Shown piece by piece: positions 6,128-50,606 of a stretch of DNA of 64,000 bases; the stretch's first letter is position 1, and every line of letters begins with the position of its first letter. The notes beneath the pieces are model-generated. The model worked only from the letters and a program-made list of their open reading frames with translations, searched no databases and had not been told where the DNA came from. The position numbers were made by a program, and so were the translations under genes. Source of the stretch: Rubrivirga marina (GTDB lineage Bacteria > Bacteroidota > Rhodothermia > Rhodothermales > Rubricoccaceae); assembly GCF_002283365.1 (NCBI RefSeq), contig NZ_MQWD01000001.1:4286992-4350991 (forward strand). Direction: 5' to 3'.

Positions 6128-7252
6128 ATGACCTCCCCCCTCCTCACTCCGTTCGACCTCGGGCCCTTGGCGCTCCCCAACCGGGTCGTCCTCGCGCCGC
6201 TCACGAGGAGCCGGCACGAGCGTCAGATCCCGACCCCGCTCGCGCCTACGTACTACGCGCAGCGGGCCTCGGCCGGCCTCCTCATCGCCGAGGCCACGCA
6301 GGTCACGCCGCGCGGGCAGGGCTACCCCGACACGCCCGGCATCTACACCGACGAGCAGGCCGAGGCCTGGCAGGCCGTCACCGACCTCGTCCACGCCGTC
6401 GGCGGGCGGATCGTGCTCCAGCTGTGGCACGTCGGCCGGGTGTCGCACTCGGCGTACCACGGCGGCAGGCTGCCCGTGGCGCCGTCGGCGATCGCGGCGC
6501 CGGGGAAGGCCATGACGCCGGACTTCGAGATGATGCCGTTCGAGACGCCGCACGCGCTGTCGACCGAAGAGGTCGCCGAGACCGTCCGCCAGTACGCCCA
6601 CGGCGCGCGGCTGGCGCGGCAGGCTGGGTTCGACGGCGTCGAGATCCACGCGGCCAACGGGTACCTCATCGAGCAATTCCTGTCGTCGGGCACGAACGAG
6701 CGGACCGACGCCTACGGCGGCTCGCTCGAGAACCGGCTCCGGTTCCTCCGCGAGGTCACCGAGGCGGTCTTGGGAGAGTGGCCAGGCGAGCGCGTCGGCA
6801 CGCGGTTCTCGTTCGGGCTTGGGACGAGTGGGGTCCGCGACGCGAGGCCCGAGGAGACTTTCGCCGCCGCGGCCGAGCTGCTGAGCGAGGCCGGGCTCGT
6901 CTACCTCCACGGCGTCCGCCCCAACGCCCGATCCGGGACCGATGGCACCGGAGGCTTCGACGCCATCGGCCTGCTCCGCGACCACTTCGACGGCGCCGTG
7001 ATCGCGAGTGCCGAGTTCGACCGCGAGGAGGGCGAGGCGATCGTCGAGGCGGGAACGGCCGACCTCGTCGCCTACGGCCGCCCGTTCCTCGCCAACCCGG
7101 ACCTCCCGATCCGGTTCGCGGCCCAGGCCGCCGGCCTCGACGCGCCGCTCAACGAGCCCGACCGGGGGACGTTCTACGGCGGCGGCACCGAGGGCTACAC
7201 CGACTACCCCATCTGGGACGGCCAGCCGGTGGCCATCGAAGCCGACGTCTGA
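6128..7252 (+). CDS. Old Yellow Enzyme family ene-reductase (alkene reductase)
   Basis: FMN-dependent, NAD(P)H-using reductase of activated C=C bonds, of the N-ethylmaleimide/xenobiotic reductase subgroup; 374 residues is normal for the family. A TIM-barrel runs the full length, with LPNRVVLAPLTRSR at the start, LWHVGRVSH near residue 100, GVEIHAANGYLIEQFL near 180 carrying the substrate-binding His/Asn pair, and TDAYGGSLENR just after. AYGRPFLANPDL near 320 is the phosphate-binding end of the barrel. ATG 6128 follows the palindromic candidate operator, which would fit stress-inducible control. It is transcribed away from the glucoamylase-family gene. Physiological substrate cannot be read from sequence. 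Confidence 0.93.
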   Translation: MTSPLLTPFDLGPLALPNRVVLAPLTRSRHERQIPTPLAPTYYAQRASAGLLIAEATQVTPRGQGYPDTPGIYTDEQAEAWQAVTDLVHAVGGRIVLQLWHVGRVSHSAYHGGRLPVAPSAIAAPGKAMTPDFEMMPFETPHALSTEEVAETVRQYAHGARLARQAGFDGVEIHAANGYLIEQFLSSGTNERTDAYGGSLENRLRFLREVTEAVLGEWPGERVGTRFSFGLGTSGVRDARPEETFAAAAELLSEAGLVYLHGVRPNARSGTDGTGGFDAIGLLRDHFDGAVIASAEFDREEGEAIVEAGTADLVAYGRPFLANPDLPIRFAAQAAGLDAPLNEPDRGTFYGGGTEGYTDYPIWDGQPVAIEADV

Positions 7253-33779: not shown

Positions 33780-34700
33780 ATGCCCCTCCGCCTCCCGCTC
33801 CTGGCCGTCGCCCTCGTCTTCCTCGGCGGGTGCGGCGGGCTCAAAGAGTCGCTCGTCGAGCGTGGGATCGCCGACCGCCGTGCCGAGGCGGGCCTGGAGA
33901 CCCGCGAGGTCGTGGTCTCCGAACGGCCGGTGGCCTATCTCGAGCGGCCGGGGGCCGAGCCGGCGCTCGTGCTCGTCCACGGGTTCGGCGCCTCGAAGGA
34001 CGCGTGGCTCGCGTTCGCGCGGGCCTACCCCGAGGGCCGACGGCTGCTGGCGCCCGACCTCGCCGGGCATGGCGGCTCGGTCCGCGATTCGTCCGTCGCC
34101 TACGACGCCGATCGGCTGGCGGACGAGGTCGGCGCGTGGCTCGACGCGGTGGCGCCCGGCGACGTTCATGTGGCCGGCAACTCGCTGGGCGGGGCCGTCG
34201 CCGCGCGGCTCGCCCTCGCGGGGCCCGACCGGGTCCGGCGGCTCGTGCTGATCGACGCGGCTGGCGTGCGCGGGCCGGAGCCGACGGCGCTCGACTCGGC
34301 GCTCGCGCGCGGCGAGGTGCCGCTCATCCCCACGACGCGGGCCGAGTACGACCGCTTCCTCGCCCTCGCCTTCGAAGGCGACCCCGGCATCCCCGGCCCC
34401 GCCCGCGACGTGCTCGCCGCCGACGTGGCCCGGCGCGCGCCGTTCCTCCGCGACCTGTTCCGGCAGATCGCCACCGAGTCCGACGCCATCCGCCCCCGCC
34501 TCGGCGAGATCGAGCAGCCGACGCTGGTGATATGGGGCGCCGAGGACCGCATCTTGAGCCCGTCGGCCGTCCCGCTCTGGGAGGACGGCCTCCCCGACGC
34601 CACGACTGCCGTGCTTCCCGGCGTCGGCCACGCGCCGATGCAGGAGCGGCCCGCCGAGACGGCCCGCCTCGTCACCGACTTCCTCCCCGCCGATGGCTGA
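33780..34700 (+). CDS. Alpha/beta-hydrolase lipoprotein
   Basis: 306 residues. A lipoprotein signal (LVFLGGC, Cys18) anchors an alpha/beta-hydrolase: LVLVHGFGASKDAWLAFA carries the oxyanion HG motif near 63, APDLAGHGGS follows, AGNSLGGAVAARLAL near 136 holds the nucleophile Ser, WGAEDRILSPSAVPLW gives the acid and VLPGVGHAPMQERP the catalytic His. It may be an esterase or lipase acting in the periplasm. Its 3' end overlaps the start of the response-regulator fusion by 8 bases, so the two are co-translated. Substrate unknown. Confidence 0.85.
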   Translation: MPLRLPLLAVALVFLGGCGGLKESLVERGIADRRAEAGLETREVVVSERPVAYLERPGAEPALVLVHGFGASKDAWLAFARAYPEGRRLLAPDLAGHGGSVRDSSVAYDADRLADEVGAWLDAVAPGDVHVAGNSLGGAVAARLALAGPDRVRRLVLIDAAGVRGPEPTALDSALARGEVPLIPTTRAEYDRFLALAFEGDPGIPGPARDVLAADVARRAPFLRDLFRQIATESDAIRPRLGEIEQPTLVIWGAEDRILSPSAVPLWEDGLPDATTAVLPGVGHAPMQERPAETARLVTDFLPADG

Positions 34701-36342
34701 CGCCAAAAACCCCGTGATCGTCTGCGTCGACGACGACCCCGACGTCCTCCGCGCGATCGCCCGCGACCTCCGCCGCCGCTACGGCGACGCCTACCGCGTC
34801 CTCCGAGCCGACTCGGGCGCCGAGGCGCTCGACGCCGTCCGCGAGCTGGCCGGGAAGAACGAGCCCGTCGCCCTCGTCCTCTCCGACCAGCGGATGCCGG
34901 GGATGGACGGTGTCGGGCTCCTGAGCGAGGTGGCCAACCTCACGCCCAAGACGAAGCGCGTCCTCCTCACGGCCTACGCCGACACCGACGCGGCGATCTC
35001 GGCCATCAACGACAGCCGCGTCGACTACTACCTCCTCAAGCCCTGGGACCCGCCCGAGGCCAAGCTCTACCCGACGCTCGACGACCTCCTCGCCGACTGG
35101 AAGGCGAACCACCGGCCCGGCTACGGCGGCCTCCGCCTCCTCGCCGACCGCTGGAACGCCGACGCCCACCGGCTCCGCGACTTCCTCTCGCGCAACAACG
35201 TGCCGTACCGGTTCGAGGACGTCGAGCGCGACGCCGAGGCGGGCGCGCTCGCCGAGGGCGCCGGCCTCCCGCTCGTGATCCTGGAGGACGGCGACCGGCT
35301 GGAGGCCCCGTCGGCGCGCGACCTCGCAGCGCGGATCGGGCTCCGGCAGGAGGCCGAGCGGGCGTTCTACGACCTCGCCATCGTCGGCGGCGGGCCGGCC
35401 GGGCTGGCGTCGGCGGTCTACGGGGCGAGCGAGGGGCTCAAGACGGTGCTCCTCGAACGCGAGGCGCCGGGCGGGCAGGCGGGCACGTCGAGCCGGATCG
35501 AGAACTACCTCGGCTTCCCCGCCGGCCTCTCCGGGGCCGACCTCGCGCGGCGCGGCGTGGCCCAGGCCGAGCGGTTCGGCGTCGAGATCCTGGCGCCGGT
35601 CGAGGTCTCGGGCCTCCGGACCGACGGGCCGTACAAGATCCTCCAGATGAGCGACGGCCGCGAGATCTCGTGCGCCGCGCTCATGCTGGCGACCGGCGTC
35701 GACTGGCGGAAGCTGCCCGCCAGCGGGGCGCCCGAGTTCGAGGGCCGCGGCGTCTACTACGGGGCGGCCATGACGGAGGCGATGGGCTGCAAGGACCAGC
35801 ACGTCGTCGTCGTCGGCGCCGGCAACTCGGCCGGCCAGGGCGCCCTCCACTTCGCCGACTACGCCGACCGGGTGACCGTGCTCGTCCGCGGCGACGACCT
35901 CGCCAAGAGCATGAGCCAGTACCTCGTCGACCGGATCGAGGCCCACGAGCGGATCGACGTCCGGCTCAACACGGAGGTCCAGTCGTGCGACGGCGACGGG
36001 CACCTCCAGCGCGTGTGCCTCGCCGACTGCAGGACGGGCGCGACGGAGACGTTCGACTGCAGCTACCTCTTCGTGTTCATCGGCGCGGCGCCGCACACCG
36101 ACTGGCTCCCGCCGGAGATCGTGCGCGACGAGCGGGGGTTCGTCCGCACTGGGCCGGACCTGCGCGACGGCGACCTCGACGGGTGGCCGCTCGAACGGGA
36201 CCCGTTCCTCCTCGAGTCGAGCGTGCCCGGCGTGTTCGTAGCCGGCGACGTCCGGCACGAGTCGGTCAAGCGGGTCGCGAGCGCCGTCGGCGAGGGCTCA
36301 GTCGCCGTCGCGTTCGTCCACCAGCACCTCGCGGCGCTGTAG
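34693..36342 (+). CDS. Fused response-regulator receiver / thioredoxin-reductase-like flavoprotein
   Basis: 549 residues, three parts. Receiver domain 1-130 is complete: acidic Asp13/14, phospho-acceptor Asp65 (LVLSDQRMPGMDG), Thr93 and Lys116 (YLLKPWDP). Residues about 140-225 look like a glutaredoxin/thioredoxin-like domain without CxxC (FLSRNNVPYRFEDVERDAE). Residues about 228-549 are a thioredoxin-reductase-type FAD/NAD(P) enzyme (LAIVGGGPAGLASAVYG; VVVVGAGNSAGQGAL; GVFVAGDV). The redox CATC of thioredoxin reductase is replaced by YYGAAMTEAMG, so it cannot reduce thioredoxin the usual way. The architecture is known in databases as a fused regulator/reductase, but its signal and partner are not. 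It overlaps the esterase on the opposite strand by 45 bases. Confidence 0.88.
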   Translation: MADAKNPVIVCVDDDPDVLRAIARDLRRRYGDAYRVLRADSGAEALDAVRELAGKNEPVALVLSDQRMPGMDGVGLLSEVANLTPKTKRVLLTAYADTDAAISAINDSRVDYYLLKPWDPPEAKLYPTLDDLLADWKANHRPGYGGLRLLADRWNADAHRLRDFLSRNNVPYRFEDVERDAEAGALAEGAGLPLVILEDGDRLEAPSARDLAARIGLRQEAERAFYDLAIVGGGPAGLASAVYGASEGLKTVLLEREAPGGQAGTSSRIENYLGFPAGLSGADLARRGVAQAERFGVEILAPVEVSGLRTDGPYKILQMSDGREISCAALMLATGVDWRKLPASGAPEFEGRGVYYGAAMTEAMGCKDQHVVVVGAGNSAGQGALHFADYADRVTVLVRGDDLAKSMSQYLVDRIEAHERIDVRLNTEVQSCDGDGHLQRVCLADCRTGATETFDCSYLFVFIGAAPHTDWLPPEIVRDERGFVRTGPDLRDGDLDGWPLERDPFLLESSVPGVFVAGDVRHESVKRVASAVGEGSVAVAFVHQHLAAL

Positions 36343-37170: not shown

Positions 37171-38118
37171 ATGCCCTCCCCCGTCACCGGCCTCCACCAC
37201 GTCTCGGCCATCACCGGCCCGGCCCAGCAGAACGTCGACTTCTACGCCGATACGCTCGGGTTCCGGCTCGTCAAGCAGACCGTCAACTTCGACGACCCGG
37301 GCACCTACCACCTCTACTACGCCGACGCGGAGGCCCGCCCGGGCTCCGTCCTGACGTTCTTCCCGTGGCCGGCGGGCCGGACCGAACGGGTCGGCGCGGG
37401 GCAGCCGACGGCGACGGCGTACGCGGTCCCCGTCGGCGCCGTCGACGCCTGGATGGACGCGCTCGCGGCGATCGGGCACGACGGATTCGACGCGCCGGCC
37501 GAGCGGTTCGGCGACCGGGTCCTCACCGTCCGTGACCCCAGCGGGATCGTCGTCGAGTTCGTTGAGGCCGGCGACGTCGACGGCCAGTGGACGACCGGGG
37601 GCGTCGGCGCCGACCGGCCGCCGGGCGCGTTCCACAGCGCGACGCTCCTCTCGGGAGACCCCGACGCGACGGCCCGCGTCCTCGCCGACGCGTTCGGCTA
37701 CGAGGAGCACCGCCAGGAGGGCGACCGGCTCCGCCTCGTGAACCCGGCTGCCGACCGCGCCCGGTTCGTCGACCTCGACCTCGGCGACGCCGAGGCGGGC
37801 CGGATGGGCATCGGGACAGTCCACCACGTCGCCTTCCGCGTGCCCACCGACGAGGCCCAGGCCGAGGTCTCCAAGCGGCTCCGCGCGCTCGGGCTGGCAC
37901 CGACCGAGGTCCGCGACCGCCAGTACTTCCGGTCGGTCTACGTCCGCGAGCCCGGCGGCGTCCTGTTCGAGGTGGCGACCGACCCGCCCGGCTTCGCCGT
38001 CGACGAGCCGGCCGACGCGCTCGGCCAGTCGCTCCAGCTGCCGCCCCAGTATGAGCCGCGGCGTGAGCGGATCGAGGCCGCGCTCGGCCCGCTCCGACTG
38101 CCGCCGGCAGGCCGGTGA
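37171..38118 (+). CDS. VOC-family ring-cleaving dioxygenase
   Basis: 315 residues made of two glyoxalase/bleomycin-resistance (VOC) modules. Metal ligands expected for Fe(II) or Mn(II) extradiol-type enzymes are seen: His in LHHVSAITG near residue 10, His in TVHHVAFRVP near 215 and Glu in GGVLFEVATDPPGF near 262. The pattern FYADTLGFRLVKQTVNFDDP, followed by YHLYYAD, is typical of the ring-cleaving dioxygenase group that includes MhqO/LinE relatives. ATG 37171 is the first Met in a divergent gap and follows a C-rich leader. Substrate (probably a hydroquinone-like aromatic) is inferred from family only. Confidence 0.85.
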   Translation: MPSPVTGLHHVSAITGPAQQNVDFYADTLGFRLVKQTVNFDDPGTYHLYYADAEARPGSVLTFFPWPAGRTERVGAGQPTATAYAVPVGAVDAWMDALAAIGHDGFDAPAERFGDRVLTVRDPSGIVVEFVEAGDVDGQWTTGGVGADRPPGAFHSATLLSGDPDATARVLADAFGYEEHRQEGDRLRLVNPAADRARFVDLDLGDAEAGRMGIGTVHHVAFRVPTDEAQAEVSKRLRALGLAPTEVRDRQYFRSVYVREPGGVLFEVATDPPGFAVDEPADALGQSLQLPPQYEPRRERIEAALGPLRLPPAGR

Positions 38119-40169: not shown

Positions 40170-40853
40170 ATGCCCGGCCCCCACGACGACCAGCCCCTCC
40201 TCCACGCCGGCGCCTCTCTCGCGGACGCCTCCGCCGCCGTCGTCCTCGTCCACGGCCGCGGCGACAGCGCGCAGGGCATCCTGGGCCTCGCGCGCGAGTT
40301 CGACCGGCCCGACGTCGCGTATCTCGCGCCGCAGGCGGCGGGCGGCGCGTGGTACCCGAACAGCTTCCTCGCCCCGCTCGAAGCCAACGAGCCCGGCCTC
40401 TCGTCCGGCATCGCCGCGGTCCTCCGGGCGGTCGCCGAGGCGGAGGCGGCCGGGATCCCACGCGAGCGGGTCGTGCTCGGCGGGTTCAGCCAGGGCGCAT
40501 GTCTCGCGGCGGAGACGGCGGCGCGAAATGCCGGCCGCTGGGGCGGCGTGTTCGCACTCAGCGGCGGCCTCCTCGGCACCGGCCCGGGGCCGGCCGACGT
40601 GCCCCGCCTGCGGGGCATGGGCGGCTCCTACGCCGAAAAGGCGTTCGACTACAGCGGCGACTTCGAGGGCACGCCCGTCTTCCTCGGCTGCTCCGACGTC
40701 GACCCGCACATTCCCCTTGTCCGCGTCGAGACGACCGCCGCCGTCTATGCCCGCCTCGGCGCCGAGGTGGACGCCCGCGTGTACCCAGGCATCGGGCACA
40801 CGATCGTCCATGATGAGATTTTGGCCATCAATAATATTACTGAATACTTGTAA
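40170..40853 (+). CDS. Phospholipase/carboxylesterase-family hydrolase, C-terminus at an AT-rich junction
   Basis: 227 residues of the carboxylesterase 2/lysophospholipase-like group. VVLVHGRGDSAQGIL near 23, VLGGFSQGACLAAETA with the nucleophile Ser near 110, FLGCSDVDPHIP with the acid near 172 and GIGHTIVHDEI with the His near 212 form a complete triad. No signal peptide is seen. The last residues (ILAINNITEYL) are encoded by AT-rich DNA that begins near 40815, so the natural C-terminus was probably replaced when the islet arrived. The catalytic part remains intact. Confidence 0.85.
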   Translation: MPGPHDDQPLLHAGASLADASAAVVLVHGRGDSAQGILGLAREFDRPDVAYLAPQAAGGAWYPNSFLAPLEANEPGLSSGIAAVLRAVAEAEAAGIPRERVVLGGFSQGACLAAETAARNAGRWGGVFALSGGLLGTGPGPADVPRLRGMGGSYAEKAFDYSGDFEGTPVFLGCSDVDPHIPLVRVETTAAVYARLGAEVDARVYPGIGHTIVHDEILAINNITEYL

Positions 40854-43947: not shown

Positions 43948-44070
43948 CGACGTCAAGCGTCCCCGACCATAGGCCGAGGCCCGCTTTTGTCATCGCCGCA
44001 GGCGATTCCTCCTGTGGGCGTAAGCTCTCCCGTCGAAATGACTTCTCCGGTAGGCCCCTCTCCCCTGCCC

Positions 44071-46437
44071 ATGCCGTTCGTCCTCGCCGCCGGCGCCGTC
44101 CCCCCGTTCCTCGTCGAGGTCGTGGCCATCGTGGCCGCGGCGGCGCTCGTGGCCTACGTCAGCCAGCGGGTCGGCCTTGTGCCCATCGTGGGCTTCCTGC
44201 TGGCGGGCGTGCTGATCGGGCCGAGCGGGCTGGGCGTCGTGACCGACCCGGAGCTGATCGATGCGGCGGCCGAGGTCGGCGTCTTGCTCCTCCTGTTCAC
44301 GATCGGGATCGAGTTCTCGCTCGACAAGCTCCAGAAGATCCAGCGGCTCATCTTCGTCGGCGGCGGGCTCCAGGTCGGGCTGACGACCCTGCTCGTGGCC
44401 GGGCTGTGCCTCGCGTTCGGCGTCGGCTGGCGACCGGCGATCTTCACGGGCTTCCTCGTCGCCCTGAGTTCGACGGCCATCGTGACGAAGCTGCTCGGCG
44501 ACCGGGGCGAGACGAACACCGAGGTGGGCCAGGGCGCGGTCGGGCTGCTGATCTTCCAGGACCTCGCCGTGATCCTGATGGTCCTCCTCGTGCCCGCGCT
44601 CGGCGGCGAGGGCGTGACGGGCCTCGACCTCGGGATCGCGCTGGGCACGGCCGCGGCGATCATCGTGTTCGTCCTCGTCGTCGCCCGGCGGATCCTGCCG
44701 CCGCTGTTGGAGCACGTCGCGCGGAGGTGCTCGCCGGAGCTCTTCCTGCTGACCGTCATCGCGATCTGCTTCGGGACGGCCTACGCGGTCGGGCTGGCGG
44801 GCGTGTCGATCTCGCTGGGCGCGTTCCTGGCGGGCCTCGTCGTGAGCCAGAGCCGGTTCTCGGAGCACGCGCTGTCGGAGATCCTCCCGCTCCAGATCCT
44901 GTTCTCGGCGACGTTCTTCGTGTCGGTCGGCCTCCTCCTCGACCTCGGCTTCCTGGTGAACAACCTCGGCCTCGTGCTCGGCGCGCTCGCGGTCGTCGCG
45001 CTCGTGAAGCTGGCGACGACGTTCGTGGCGGTCCGCGCGGTCGGAAGGGCGGCGCCAGCGGCGGCGGCGACGGCGCTGTGGCTGGCGCAGGTCGGCGAGT
45101 TCTCGTTCGTGTTGGAGCGGTCGGGCCGCGAGGTTGGCCTCGCGCCGCTCGGGTCGGACGCCATCGGCGGCCCGCTCTTCATCGCGGCGACCGTCATCTC
45201 GATGGCGCTCACGCCGGTCGCCGCGCCCTACGCCGGGCGGATGGCGGCCGGGCTCCGGCGGATGACCTCCGACGCCACGCCCGAGCCGACCGAGGCGGAG
45301 GCGGTCGAGGCGGCCGGCCATTTTTCGGACCTCGAGAACCACACGATCGTGGCCGGCTACGGCGACGCCGCGCGGAAGCTGGTCCACGTCCTCGAGGGCT
45401 CGGGCGTCCCGTTCGCCGTCGTCACGCTTTCGCCGGAGGGCGCTCGGGAGGCGGAGGAATCGGGGCTCCGCGTCCTCCGCGGCGACTACGCCAAGCGCCA
45501 CATCCTCGAGGCCGTCGGGCTCCAGCGCGCGAAGATGCTCGTCGTCCCGGACGACAACCCGGCCATGACGCACCGCGTGGTGTCCGTCGCCCGGGCCCTC
45601 AGCCCGACGACCCGGATCGTCGCATCGGTCCCGTCGCTGCACGACGCCGAGGAGTTGGTCGAAGCCGGCGCAGATCGGGCCATCGCGACCGAGTTCGAGG
45701 CCGTCGTCGGCCTGTTCGACGACGTCCTCCGGCGCTACCAGGTGGCGCCGGCCGAGATCCTCCGCCACGAGGAGACGCTCCGCCGGGGGAGCTACGAGGC
45801 GTTCGACGCCGACGTCATGGACACGCCGGCCGTCCGCTGCGAGCTCGCCGCCGACTGTTTCTCCACGCGCACCGTCACGATCCGCACCGGCGCCCGCGCC
45901 GCCGGTCAGTCCCTCGCCGCCCTCCAGCTCGACGAGCGGCTCCTCCACGTCACCCAGGTCTCGCGCGACGGCGACGTGACGCGCGAGCCGGGCGGCGGCT
46001 TCGTCCTCCGGGCCGGCGACGAGGTCCTCTTCGGCGGCACGCCGCAGGCGCTCATCGACGCCGGGGACCTCTTCCGCGTCACCGACGGTCGGACGCCCGC
46101 CCTCCCCGCCCCGCCGCCCATGCCCACGCAGCGCGCCGACTGGATCGACACCTCGGCCCCGGTCCACCTCGACCCCGACCCCGACGCCGGGTGCACCCAC
46201 CTCGACCACGTCCACGACGTGACGCCCGGGACCCAGGGGTGCGAGGAGTGCCTGGAGCGCGGCGACCGGTGGGTCCACCTCCGCGTGTGCCTCGAATGCG
46301 GCCACGTCGGCTGCTGCGACTCATCGCCCAACAAGCACGCGACGAAGCACTACCACCGGACGGGCCACCCCGTCGTGCGGAGCATCGAGCCGGGCGAGAC
46401 GTGGGGCTGGTGCTACGAAGACGAGGTGATGCTGTAG
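44071..46437 (+). CDS. KefB-type cation/proton antiporter with RCK domains and a C-terminal UBP-type zinc finger
   Basis: 788 residues. A CPA2 transporter domain of about 12 helices spans 1-390 (GLVPIVGFLLAGVLIGPSG; LALSSTAIVTKLL-like segment at 125-140; IEFSLDKLQKI). A TrkA/RCK N-terminal domain follows near 425 (NHTIVAGYGDAARKLVHVL), then a TrkA-C domain near 600-680. The last 80 residues form a UBP-type zinc finger: CTHLDHV, GCEECLERGDRWVHLRVC, LECGHVGCCDSSPNKHATKH and YHRTGHPVVRS. This finger binds ubiquitin C-termini in eukaryotes and has no settled role in bacteria. ATG 44071 was chosen for its C-rich leader and membrane start; ATG 44038 is an alternative. Confidence 0.88.
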   Translation: MPFVLAAGAVPPFLVEVVAIVAAAALVAYVSQRVGLVPIVGFLLAGVLIGPSGLGVVTDPELIDAAAEVGVLLLLFTIGIEFSLDKLQKIQRLIFVGGGLQVGLTTLLVAGLCLAFGVGWRPAIFTGFLVALSSTAIVTKLLGDRGETNTEVGQGAVGLLIFQDLAVILMVLLVPALGGEGVTGLDLGIALGTAAAIIVFVLVVARRILPPLLEHVARRCSPELFLLTVIAICFGTAYAVGLAGVSISLGAFLAGLVVSQSRFSEHALSEILPLQILFSATFFVSVGLLLDLGFLVNNLGLVLGALAVVALVKLATTFVAVRAVGRAAPAAAATALWLAQVGEFSFVLERSGREVGLAPLGSDAIGGPLFIAATVISMALTPVAAPYAGRMAAGLRRMTSDATPEPTEAEAVEAAGHFSDLENHTIVAGYGDAARKLVHVLEGSGVPFAVVTLSPEGAREAEESGLRVLRGDYAKRHILEAVGLQRAKMLVVPDDNPAMTHRVVSVARALSPTTRIVASVPSLHDAEELVEAGADRAIATEFEAVVGLFDDVLRRYQVAPAEILRHEETLRRGSYEAFDADVMDTPAVRCELAADCFSTRTVTIRTGARAAGQSLAALQLDERLLHVTQVSRDGDVTREPGGGFVLRAGDEVLFGGTPQALIDAGDLFRVTDGRTPALPAPPPMPTQRADWIDTSAPVHLDPDPDAGCTHLDHVHDVTPGTQGCEECLERGDRWVHLRVCLECGHVGCCDSSPNKHATKHYHRTGHPVVRSIEPGETWGWCYEDEVML

Positions 46438-46505: not shown

Positions 46506-47681
46506 CTACGCGTCGGCCAGCGGGAGCACGGCGGTCACGGTCGTCCCTTGGTGGGGCACCGAGTCGACCTCGAGTTGGCCGCCGGCCAGGCCGAGGCGGT
46601 GGCGGAGCTCGCTCAGGCCCAGGCCGGTCGCGTCCGCGGAGTCGTGGTCGTCGAACCCCTCGCCCTCGTCGCGGACCGAGAGGTGGCAGCCCTCCGCGTC
46701 GCACCACGCCCGGACCCACGCCTCCCCGGTCCCGGCGTGCTTGACGACGTTGAACAGGAGCTCGCGGGCGACGCGCGTAAGCAGCGACCGGACTCCGTGC
46801 GACGGCATCGTCCCGGCCGACGTCACGTCGAGGTGGACGGTCAGGCCGTAGCGCTGGCGGGCGTAGTCCGCGACCCAGCCGAGCGCGGCGCCGACGCCGT
46901 CGTCGAAGAGCGACGGCGGGTGGAGCTCGGTGGCGAGCAGGCGCGTCTGGTTGATGGCCTCGTCGACGTAGCCCTCGACGCGGTCGCCGAGGCCGTCGGC
47001 CCCGCCGGCCGCCCGCGACAGGAGGTCGACGTGGATCTTGAGGCCGTAGAGCGTCTGCTGGACGTCGTCGTGGAGCAGCTGGGCGACCCGCTCGCGCTCT
47101 CGGAGCTCGGCCTCGGAGAGCGACCGGGCGAGAGACTCGACCTGATGGGCGCGGTCCCGGAGCGCGGCCGTCTGCTCGTCCACGCGGTCTTGGAGCTCGG
47201 CGTTGAACCGCTGGACGCGGTCGAGGAGGTCGCGCACGCGGAGCTGCTGGCGGCGGGCCTCGACGGCGAGCCGGACGACCGACCGGAACGCGACCGGCTG
47301 GATCGGCCGCTCGAGCACGGTCACATGCCGGCGCCCGCCCAGCAGGCCGGTCAGCCCGAGGTAGTCGCCGGCGCTCCACCCCGCGTCGACGAACAGGACG
47401 AACGGGAGCTCGGACCAGTCGGGCTCGCCGGCCAGGGCCTCGGCGAGCACCTCGATGCCGGGCAGCGAGAGCGCCTCGCCCGTCAGCACGACGGCGCCCG
47501 CGTCGGGCCGGCCGACGGACGTGCAGAGGCCGGGCGCGTCGGGCAGCGACACGACCTCGAGGTCGTCGTCGGTCAGCACGCGCCCCACGAGCTCCGCGTC
47601 GCGGCCGACCGGGGTAAGGACGAGGGCCGCCAGCCGCTGGGCCGGCGTCGTGCCGTTGCTAAGTGATGCGAGGGGCCCCAT
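46506..47681 (-). CDS. Sensor histidine kinase with pseudo-receiver input
   Basis: 391 residues, cytoplasmic. Residues 15-145 form a receiver-like domain without the phospho-acceptor Asp set (RPDAGAVVLTGEALSLPG; RRHVTVLERPIQPVAF), a common input module. A coiled coil (about 150-200) leads to a HisKA_3-type site, REREVAQ-like RERERVAQLLHDDVQQTL with His near 203. The ATPase domain has RELLFNVVKHA near 293, VRDEGEGFDDHDS near 332 and GLGLSELRHRLGLAGG near 350. No response regulator is adjacent. It follows the KaiC-like gene by 74 bases on the same strand, so they are likely co-transcribed. Confidence 0.87.
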   Translation of the reverse strand: MGPLASLSNGTTPAQRLAALVLTPVGRDAELVGRVLTDDDLEVVSLPDAPGLCTSVGRPDAGAVVLTGEALSLPGIEVLAEALAGEPDWSELPFVLFVDAGWSAGDYLGLTGLLGGRRHVTVLERPIQPVAFRSVVRLAVEARRQQLRVRDLLDRVQRFNAELQDRVDEQTAALRDRAHQVESLARSLSEAELRERERVAQLLHDDVQQTLYGLKIHVDLLSRAAGGADGLGDRVEGYVDEAINQTRLLATELHPPSLFDDGVGAALGWVADYARQRYGLTVHLDVTSAGTMPSHGVRSLLTRVARELLFNVVKHAGTGEAWVRAWCDAEGCHLSVRDEGEGFDDHDSADATGLGLSELRHRLGLAGGQLEVDSVPHQGTTVTAVLPLADA

Positions 47682-47755
47682 TAACCGTCAAGAACGCCGG
47701 GCCCAAGTGGGAGATGCGCTCGGGCACCCTGAACCCCGAGTGAGGGAATCCCCCG

Positions 47756-49240
47756 CTAGAGAGACGTCCCGTCCACGAAGGCCGCGAGGCCGGTCAGGAC
47801 GCCCTGGTAGTCGGTGATCGCGTCGCCGACGGCCATCCCGTCGTCGCTCATCACGAACTGGCGGACGCGCCGGTCGTGCCCGCCGCGCCGCCGCTTGACC
47901 ACGGCGATGGCCTTGCGGATCTCGCCGCGAGCCTCGTAGTGCTGGAGCAGGAGGACCGTGTCGGCGACGTAGCTGATGTCGATCTGGGGCGCCGTCGCGT
48001 CACCGAGAAGCCCGTGCTCGGGGACCGTCAGGAGCGTGACGACGCCTCGCCCGCCGAGGTAGGCCAGGAGGTCGTGGAGCTGGCTCGCTGCGCGGTCGGC
48101 GCCGGGGCAGGCGTGCGTGAAGCCCGTCAGGCTGTCGATGACGACGAGCCGGACGCCCGCCTCGACGTCACGGTGGACGCGGTCGATGAACCGGCCGGTG
48201 GTCATGATCGAGGCGCTGAGCTCCTGGACCTGGAGCACGTCCCCCATCGACCGGAGGTCGTACCCCAGGCCCTCCATCCGGTCGAGGAGCGTCCGCTTCC
48301 GCTCGTCGAAGGTGTAGATCGCCGCCGGCGCCCCGCCCTCGGCGGCGGCCACGGCGTAGGAGGCCGCCAGCGACGACTTGCCGGTCCCCGAGACGCCGAC
48401 GACGACGCACGACGCGCCGGGGTCGAGCCCCCCGTCCAGCATCGCGTCGAGGCCGTCGATCCGGCTCGACCGCGAGGCCCCCACCTCGCCCGCCTCGGCC
48501 CGTTCGTCGGCGCCCTCGTCCTTCAGCCGCATCGTGAGGCTCGGGTACACCTCGAGCCCGCCGTGCAGGATCCGGAAGTCGTGGTACCCCGTCGGGTGGT
48601 CGACGCCGCGGATCTTGGGGATCTGGAGCCGGCGGTAGACCTGCCCGTACTGGGGCGCGTCGCGCTCGAGCCGGACGACGCCGTGCATGATCGAGTACAC
48701 CGCGCTGTCGCCGTCGCTGGCGCTGTAGTCGTCGAGGAGGAGCGTGGTCACGTCACGCTGGCCGAGCGCGTGCTTGAGCGCGAGGAACCGGCGGCGGCTC
48801 CGGAGCCCGTCGCCCGACAGCAGGCGGAGCTCGGCGGCCGAGTCGAGGACGAGCCGGGCCGGCCGGACCGACCCGACGGCGCCCAGGACGGTGTCCATCA
48901 GGTCCACGAGGTCGACGTCGCCGGCGGGGAAGAGCGTGTGGTCGGAGGCGTGGAGGTCGAGCCCGCCGGACTCCACGTCGAGCACGTCGACGCCCTCGAG
49001 GTCCCACCCGTGCGAGTCGGCGATGGCGAGGAGCTCGTCGCGACGCTGCGACAGCGTGACGTACAGGACGCGCTCGCCCGCCTCGACGGCGGCGCGGCAG
49101 AAGTGGAGCGCGAACGTGGTCTTGCCGGTCCCGGGTCGACCTTCGAGGAGGTACATCCGCCCGGCAGGAAAGCCACCGCCGAGCAGCACGTCGAACCCCG
49201 GAACGCCGGACGAAACACGAGAGGACACGGTCGGGGTCAC
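47756..49240 (-). CDS. KaiC-like double-domain RecA-type ATPase
   Basis: 494 residues, two KaiC domains. The first has Walker A LEGRPGTGKTT near 32, but its catalytic glutamates are replaced (VTLSQRRDE near 61). The second has VVGVSGTGKSS near 280 and TFDERKR near 310 with the acidic pair as Asp-Glu. At the autophosphorylation site the protein reads DISYVADT, so the Ser431 equivalent is kept (Ser423) and Thr432 is Tyr. No kaiA or kaiB is present. GTG 49240 was chosen: a TATACTCC box lies just upstream at 49267-49274. Probably a signalling ATPase working with the kinase downstream rather than a full clock. Confidence 0.87.
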   Translation of the reverse strand: MTPTVSSRVSSGVPGFDVLLGGGFPAGRMYLLEGRPGTGKTTFALHFCRAAVEAGERVLYVTLSQRRDELLAIADSHGWDLEGVDVLDVESGGLDLHASDHTLFPAGDVDLVDLMDTVLGAVGSVRPARLVLDSAAELRLLSGDGLRSRRRFLALKHALGQRDVTTLLLDDYSASDGDSAVYSIMHGVVRLERDAPQYGQVYRRLQIPKIRGVDHPTGYHDFRILHGGLEVYPSLTMRLKDEGADERAEAGEVGASRSSRIDGLDAMLDGGLDPGASCVVVGVSGTGKSSLAASYAVAAAEGGAPAAIYTFDERKRTLLDRMEGLGYDLRSMGDVLQVQELSASIMTTGRFIDRVHRDVEAGVRLVVIDSLTGFTHACPGADRAASQLHDLLAYLGGRGVVTLLTVPEHGLLGDATAPQIDISYVADTVLLLQHYEARGEIRKAIAVVKRRRGGHDRRVRQFVMSDDGMAVGDAITDYQGVLTGLAAFVDGTSL

Positions 49241-49266
49241 GGGCCAGGGTGAACGGGATCGGCCCG

Positions 49267-49274
49267 GGAGTATA
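49267..49274 (-). promoter_or_regulatory. putative -10 box (TATACTCC) for the KaiC-like gene
   Basis: TATACTCC on the minus strand lies 26 bases upstream of GTG 49240 in the 97-base gap after the serine hydrolase gene. Confidence 0.4.
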
Positions 49275-49337
49275 CCAGGCGCACACATATCGGCGCACGC
49301 CCGGTTCCCTTTCCGTCTCGCCGTTAGCCTTCGCGCA

Positions 49338-50606
49338 TCAGCTTCCACGCGCACGGAACGCCCCGTACACGGCCTCGCGGACCCCGTGGTGGAGCCCGAC
49401 GCCGTCGAACGGCATGAGCTGGACGAAGAGGACCGCCGTGAGCTCGTTCACCGGGTCCACCCAGAACAGCGTGCTCGCCGCGCCGTCCCAGAAGAACTCG
49501 CCGACCGTCCCCGGATTCTCGTCGGCGGAGGCCGGGGGCCGGACACGAACCGCAAAATCGATCCCGAACCCGACCTGTCCCTTGCTGGGCAGCCACATGC
49601 GCTGGGTCACGGCGTCGTCCAGGTGGCTCGTCGCCATAAGACGGACGGTCTCGGGCTGGAGGATCCGGACGCCGTCGAGCACGCCGCCGTTCAGCAGCAT
49701 CTGCGCGAAGCGCGAGTAGTCGTCGAGGGTCGACGTGAGCCCCCAGCCGCCGGGCGTCAACGGCCACGCCTGTGTGTTGAACACGTCGATGCCGTCGATG
49801 GGCGAGAGCGCGCCGTCGTCGCCGCGGCGATAGACGGCGGCCATCCGGTCCCGGTCGGCCTCGGGGACGACGTAGCGGGTCTCGCTCATCCCGAGCGGGG
49901 CCAGCACGTGCTCGCGGACGTACTCGGCGTACGGCTGCCCGGAGATCCGCTCGACCAGAAACGCCTGGAGGTCGACCGACGGCCCGTAAGCCCACTGCTC
50001 GCCGGGGTGGAACCCGAGCGGGACGCTCGCGAACTGGCGGGCCATGGTCTCGAGCGTGTTCTCGCGGTTCATCGGGTCGGCCTCGCGGAGCATCGCCGCC
50101 AGGGCCTCGTGCCCGCCGTCGGCGCCGATGCCAGCCGTGTGCCGCGTGAGGTCGCGGATGGTGACCGGCCGGCGCGGCGCCTCGAGGATCGGCTGGCCGT
50201 CGGCGTCCACGCCCGCGTAGACCACGACGTCGGCGAACTCCGGGGCGTAGTCGGCGAGCGGGTCGTCGAGGTCGAAGGCGCCGGCCTCCCACAGCGTCAT
50301 CAGCGCGACGCCGGTGACGGGCTTCGTCATCGAGTAGACCTGGACGATGGCGTTGCGGGTCATCGGCACGTCCGCCTCGCGGTCGGCGTGGCCGTAGGCG
50401 CCGACATAGGCCTCCTCTCCCCGCTCTAGGACGAGGGCCGAGACGCCCACCACGTCGCCCCGCTCGACGAACCCGGCCAGCGTGGCGTCGAGGCGGGCCA
50501 CCGCGGCCTCGTCGACCACGCGCGGGAGGTCGGGCGCCCTGGGTTGCGCGCGGGCGGAGGCGACGAGGAGGAGCGCAGCGACGATCGCCGACGGGATGCG
50601 GAGCAT
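49338..50606 (-). CDS. Class C beta-lactamase-like serine hydrolase, secreted
   Basis: 422 residues with a signal peptide (MLRIPSAIVAALLLVASARA). The SxxK motif is VYSMTKPVTGV with Ser92 and Lys95. The second motif is WAYGPSVDLQAFLVERISG near 208 with its Tyr. GEFFWDGAASTLFWVDP near 375 stands where the KTG-like box lies. This is the widespread esterase/D-aminopeptidase-type branch rather than a proven antibiotic-resistance enzyme. A TATTCTGG-like box lies upstream. It is followed on the same strand by the KaiC-like gene, with no functional link evident. Confidence 0.85.
   Translation of the reverse strand: MLRIPSAIVAALLLVASARAQPRAPDLPRVVDEAAVARLDATLAGFVERGDVVGVSALVLERGEEAYVGAYGHADREADVPMTRNAIVQVYSMTKPVTGVALMTLWEAGAFDLDDPLADYAPEFADVVVYAGVDADGQPILEAPRRPVTIRDLTRHTAGIGADGGHEALAAMLREADPMNRENTLETMARQFASVPLGFHPGEQWAYGPSVDLQAFLVERISGQPYAEYVREHVLAPLGMSETRYVVPEADRDRMAAVYRRGDDGALSPIDGIDVFNTQAWPLTPGGWGLTSTLDDYSRFAQMLLNGGVLDGVRILQPETVRLMATSHLDDAVTQRMWLPSKGQVGFGIDFAVRVRPPASADENPGTVGEFFWDGAASTLFWVDPVNELTAVLFVQLMPFDGVGLHHGVREAVYGAFRARGS

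Follow-up and report, generated by a model that had tools for sequence, protein, structure and literature searches.

The window analysed here, a 64,000-nucleotide stretch of the Rubrivirga marina genome, contains a plus-strand open reading frame (43987-46437) in which Pfam places a CPA2 exchanger, followed by TrkA_N and TrkA_C and, at the C-terminus, by a zf-UBP finger (Table 1). The frame is open from a TTG at 43987, and relatives favour initiation at the ATG of position 44071; residue numbers (D778, C777, W808, and so on) refer throughout to the 816-residue form counted from the TTG. In this form, the Pfam spans are Na_H_Exchanger at 51-410 (E 4e-48), TrkA_N at 454-566 (E 1e-16), TrkA_C at 630-696 (E 2e-7), and zf-UBP (PF02148) at 752-813, the last scoring 49.6 bits in the whole protein and 55 as an isolated domain, over a gathering score of 22.7. 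The finger itself runs from the CxH pair C736/H738 (46183 lies just 5' of the pair) to the stop. This domain order within one frame bears out the finger-antiporter fusion described in an earlier sequence-only reading, which had also put two RCK domains ahead of the finger: an RCK is indeed present, but it is a single one, built of TrkA_N and TrkA_C. The nearest named relative, a Rubrivirga MAG, shows 93% identity, and the R. marina genome holds one zf-UBP copy.

The antiporter is part of a module that also comprises a receiver-flavoprotein, a glyoxalase/dioxygenase, a carboxylesterase, and a cNMP-domain histidine kinase. The module genes in the window all lie on the antiporter's strand, with unrelated genes between them, and the orthologue of the kinase (72%) lies outside the window, elsewhere in the R. 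marina genome. A HisKA_3-type kinase gene adjoining a two-domain KaiC-like ATPase gene (46506-49354, minus strand) is convergent with the antiporter gene; this kinase differs from the cNMP kinase of the module.

Table 1. Features of the antiporter and of the linked module genes in the window
Feature	Position	Strand	Basis
Receiver domain, glutaredoxin-like stretch, TrxR-like flavoprotein without CxxC	34693..36342	+	72% identity to the G425 module protein; Pfam; motifs
Glyoxalase/ring-cleaving dioxygenase-type protein	37171..38118	+	PF00903, E 3e-19; counterparts adjoin the antiporter in L155 and L156
Carboxylesterase (Abhydrolase_2)	40170..40853	+	PF02230, E 1e-20; counterpart adjoins the antiporter in L155
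KefC-like CPA2 K+/H+ antiporter ending in a UBP finger	44071..46437	+	788 aa from ATG; Pfam, NCBIfam, KefC 8bxg E 2e-59
Na_H_Exchanger membrane domain with KefC-type QD site	44137..45216	+	Pfam; K+-site residues kept in 18/18 fusions
TrkA_N (RCK N-terminal) without the KefC glutathione-site residues	45346..45684	+	Pfam; site comparison with KefC
TrkA_C (RCK C-terminal)	45874..46074	+	Pfam; missing from most other Rhodothermales fusions
Bacterial-type zf-UBP finger, CCD where ubiquitin-binding fingers have CGR	46183..46437	+	Pfam, alignments, AlphaFold2, Foldseek

The antiporter has in common with Escherichia coli KefC and KefB (PDB 8bxg, 8by2) the CPA2 membrane domain, the QD K+ site, the RCK N-domain, and an association with a flavoprotein. 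Among the functional residues of KefC, taken from PMC11150392 and PMC10224563, those of the K+ site (S125, T127, Q155, D156, and K307) are kept in all 18 fusions, and the S336 position is Gly in every one of them. The R. marina protein departs from the E. coli proteins in that (i) all seven glutathione-site residues differ, R409, Q412, R416, R498, D499, R516, and N551 of KefC being replaced by D, R, H, P, S, A, and S, respectively (some other fusions retain Arg at position 416 or 498); (ii) its scores lie below the NCBIfam equivalog cut-offs (273.8 versus 752 for the KefC model and 240.2 versus 804 for KefB); (iii) TrkA_C and the UBP finger are additional; and (iv) no KefF- or KefG-like ancillary gene was seen among the neighbouring genes examined, whereas full activation of Kef in E. 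coli requires KefF, a flavin quinone oxidoreductase (PMC10224563). Since the K+ site is kept and the glutathione site is lost, we would expect a K+/H+ exchanger that works without glutathione gating of the E. coli kind.

Fingers of the zf-UBP family are familiar mainly from ubiquitin biology. The assignment of the R. marina finger to this family, proposed in the sequence-only reading, is upheld by its profile score, by comparison with the bacterial NMR structure 2ida, and by its predicted fold. The AlphaFold2 model of the isolated finger (mean pLDDT 92) has 2ida as its top Foldseek match (1.2 A, TM 0.79), followed by the HDAC6 ZnF-UBP (TM 0.66), and the finger is thus predicted to adopt the UBP treble-clef fold. 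The 2ida protein, RPA1320 of Rhodopseudomonas palustris, deposited as a hypothetical protein, shares family, fold, and the CCD motif with the R. marina finger (E 1.5e-35), but it stands alone, whereas the R. marina finger is fused to an antiporter. The AlphaFold2 model of the full-length antiporter (pLDDT 72.7, pTM 0.50) is too weak for positioning the finger on the RCK.

In an alignment of 122 bacterial sequences (the window protein and 121 bacterial loci, 2ida included), the putative zinc-ligand positions are invariant or near-invariant, which contradicts the suspicion that the ligands might not be conserved in relatives; from these conserved positions, the finger is predicted to bind zinc. 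The same conservation, together with the zinc ions found at the KefC-KefF interface of E. coli (PMC10224563), would suit a finger that senses zinc, or that is a structural zinc module adjusting or stabilising the antiporter. However, a ligand set as complete as this one suggests zinc that is structural and tightly held, neither a transporter nor a regulator of zinc was noticed in the module, and surface residues beyond the ligands are likewise near-invariant in the bacterial fingers, all of which makes such a role distinctly unlikely. Zinc and a metabolite were both named as candidate signals in the sequence-only reading, and the finger may yet respond to either.

We turn next to the ubiquitin pocket, in which R1155 and Y1184 of HDAC6, equivalent to R84 and Y117 of USP16, contact the terminal glycine of ubiquitin (PMC10424181). 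A HMMER alignment of the finger with USP16, gapless at the pocket, sets C776-C777-D778 on C-G-R. Position 778, equivalent to HDAC6 R1155 and USP16 R84, is Asp in 114, Glu in 4, Asn in 3, and Gly in 1 of the 122 sequences, and Arg in none. The pocket Trp, W808, and the pocket Tyr, Y810 (HDAC6 Y1184), are largely retained, the latter position being Tyr or Phe in 120 of 122; a putative W-to-R change at R766 hinges on the placement of a short insertion in the alignment and was set aside. The R. marina finger resembles the ZnF-UBP domains of HDAC6, USP5, and USP16 in fold (TM about 0.6-0.67), zinc ligands, and pocket Trp and Tyr, but differs from them in the Arg-to-Asp change in the pocket, an additional Cys, a Cys-to-Asp change at the last-ligand position, and the lack of an obvious ubiquitin partner.

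With Asp in place of the pocket Arg, the expected ligand would be something other than the free carboxylate of a C-terminus. A precedent is provided by the ZnF-UBP domains of USP20 and USP33, which likewise combine the UBP fold with acidic pocket residues, show no measurable binding to the ubiquitin tail, and use that very pocket, through its acidic residues, to hold internal [KR]xxL[NED] peptides (PMC13376213). USP20 and USP33 are eukaryotic deubiquitinases, and a basic motif is at most a candidate ligand of the bacterial pocket. Profile searches of the genome for ubiquitin-system genes returned one ThiF (E1-like) gene and no Pup ligase, in line with the earlier statement that the bacterium has no obvious ubiquitin system; the PF00240 profile matched nothing anywhere, and is hence uninformative on ubiquitin-like proteins here. 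The shared fold, the retained W808 and Y810, and the ThiF gene could be taken to mean that the target of the finger is a C-terminus, either of a ThiS/MoaD-type bacterial ubiquitin-like protein or of a degraded protein, in the manner of HDAC6 and USP5 with ubiquitin. We judge this very improbable, as the carboxylate-binding Arg has given way to Asp, the searches found a single ThiF and no Pup ligase, and the module showed no gene for a Ubl, an E1, or an E2; the sensing of a free Gly-Gly-like C-terminus, put forward in the sequence-only reading, is disfavoured by the loss of the pocket Arg.

Position 777, beside the ligand C776, is Cys in 121 of the 122 sequences and has no counterpart in ubiquitin-binding fingers. 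This residue, as well as the flavoprotein and the glyoxalase-type enzyme in the module, speaks for direct cysteine sensing, the main rival to the docking and gating role favoured below: the finger itself would be the sensor, its cysteines, C777 included, reacting with oxidants or electrophiles and losing zinc or forming a disulfide, and so gating the antiporter. Zinc binding, however, accounts for every cysteine except C777, the flavoprotein is without the CxxC needed for reducing the finger cysteines, and the conservation of Asp, Trp, and Tyr in the pocket finds no explanation in this view. On balance, we consider direct cysteine sensing unlikely.

The receiver part of the flavoprotein retains its acidic residues, the phospho-acceptor Asp, and the Lys. 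In its TrxR-like part, the CxxC is replaced by YGAA, the motif being absent from the window protein and from each of the 45 aligned homologues; the part of the glutaredoxin-like stretch covered by the alignment shows no pair of cysteines either. A dithiol reductase role for the receiver-flavoprotein is therefore unlikely. A disulfide relay from thioredoxin reductase to the finger, which we favoured at first because the neighbour scores as TrxR, was weakened by the absence of CxxC. As the redox output of a two-component system, the fusion of an intact-acceptor receiver to a TrxR-like flavoprotein is out of the ordinary.

Of 114 genomes from the order, 19 contain PF02148, 18 of them with a score above the cut-off; the domain also occurs in 38 of 396 genomes of a phylum sample, 61 of 146 Myxococcota genomes, and 56 of 247 Actinomycetota genomes. 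When fused and stand-alone copies were told apart at the order level, 14 of the 18 finger-positive genomes carried the antiporter fusion; of the other four, two have the antiporter and the finger in adjacent overlapping frames (L130/L154 and L131), and in the remaining two the finger either stands alone (L128) or is decayed (L129). This recurrence among relatives, which extends to Myxococcota, rules out a single-strain artefact. In the split loci, which belong to one genus of family f13, the separate finger has retained the IDTEATIHF motif of the linker, a hint of gene fission or, alternatively, of a frameshift. The finger of L129 (G231, a relative of the same family) is truncated, stands alone, and is apparently decaying; the receiver-flavoprotein is retained elsewhere in that genome.

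In Myxococcota, the fusions at L133, L135, L137, and L140 are ∼54% identical to the window protein, with TrkA_C confirmed in L137 and L140, and remoter CPA2 fusions (∼40% identity) occur at L136, which is without TrkA_C, and L139. In Actinomycetota, the finger ends exchangers whose CPA1 (rather than CPA2) label is our own judgement from sequence and not a tool call (L144, L148, and L149 by Pfam; L152 by similarity); no RCK was found in these fusions. Further, the finger forms the end of a protein combining a cNMP domain with a histidine-kinase ATPase (L150) and that of a cNMP-domain TrxR-like flavoprotein (L138). The antiporter tree for counting fusion events has long branches, and the Archangium-type fusions take no firm position in it. 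The patchy spread of the domain is what one would expect of a passive passenger that moves by transfer and becomes fused at random. That account is hardly credible, however, in view of the recurrent fusions with antiporters from more than one family and of the strong linkage with one gene set.

This linkage is seen in several groups. Across the order and the class, genes for a cNMP-domain histidine kinase and for a receiver-TrxR-like flavoprotein are frequent neighbours of the finger or of the fused antiporter; the glyoxalase/dioxygenase and the carboxylesterase are also alongside in L155, L156, and, by gene order, L164, and both L156 and L165 have a gene similar to the carboxylesterase with its start at the corresponding point. 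Across the 396 phylum genomes, the receiver-flavoprotein is present in 33 of the 36 with a finger match over the Pfam cut-off, compared with 20 of the 360 others (Fisher 8e-31, uncorrected for shared ancestry), and in 23 phylum genomes the two lie at most 10 kb apart on the same strand. In Actinomycetota, an antiporter, kinase, or flavoprotein gene lies within 7 kb of 12 of 23 finger loci, a tally that takes in two fusions, versus 0 of 19 control stretches from the same genomes (Fisher 1e-4). At one actinomycete locus (L161), a lone finger and an antiporter are separated by a quinone-oxidoreductase/alcohol-dehydrogenase-like gene (6218-7186, minus strand) that scores below family cut-offs. Stand-alone fingers of Myxococcota are mostly outside the module, 2 of 21 having the flavoprotein. 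Twelve of these 21 adjoin a DHA2 (EmrB-type) MFS drug exporter, another H+-coupled exchanger (L251-L256, L259, L261, L263, L264, L266, and L267), and one myxobacterial finger has a DnaK/HscA-like ATPase gene on either side (L250, 3973-9332), the second of these being an assignment by eye only.

Given the loss of the tail-binding Arg and the company of stress-response genes, the finger more likely serves in local control or docking than as a ubiquitin receptor. Our preferred reading, which we hold tentatively as a serious possibility somewhat short of probable, is that the finger is an RPA1320-like UBP docking and gating module of a KefC-like antiporter, acting in a glutathione-independent, Kef-like stress response, with its ligand and mechanism conjectural. 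This reading is favoured by (i) the module linkage in the phylum and in Actinomycetota; (ii) the fusions to CPA2, CPA1, cNMP-kinase, and cNMP-flavoprotein partners; and (iii) the kept K+ site and lost glutathione site, considered together with the need of E. coli Kef for KefF and with the USP20/33 peptide precedent. Weighing against it are the mostly off-module stand-alone fingers of Myxococcota, the location of the kinase outside the window, and the interruption of the module genes.

Under the docking and gating reading, stress would switch on the kinase/flavoprotein pair; judging from the glyoxalase-type enzyme, the esterase, and the flavoprotein that accompany the Kef-like exchanger, its most likely form would be electrophiles, quinones, or redox imbalance. 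The finger would then recognise the kinase or the flavoprotein, probably via a peptide motif in the former ubiquitin pocket, and docking would alter the contact between RCK and membrane domain, opening K+ efflux and H+ influx, so that the resulting acidification would protect the cell. Finger and partner would thereby stand in for the glutathione adducts and KefF of E. coli Kef. The stress signal, the peptide docking, and the direction of gating are the parts of this scheme that we infer.

A bacterial UBP finger structure has been available since 2006 (2ida), and no reported function for such fingers was found in the literature searched. Our search returned no paper joining zf-UBP with antiporters or with the module; it did not reach Burroughs et al. 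2011, which may cover prokaryotic zf-UBP domains and their gene contexts. Bacterial UBP fingers are common, and their repeated fusions and tight linkage to the receiver-flavoprotein, the kinase, and the antiporter provide concrete partner candidates. More speculatively, and with appreciable doubt, docking and gating may be what bacterial UBP fingers have in common, as parts of an undescribed stress system that operates independently of glutathione: a histidine kinase and a receiver-flavoprotein would control H+-coupled exchangers (CPA2, CPA1, and perhaps DHA2) through the finger, and its re-cut ubiquitin pocket would take another ligand. Our findings suggest possible roles of the UBP fold without ubiquitin, as well as a route for glutathione-free control of a Kef-like exchanger.
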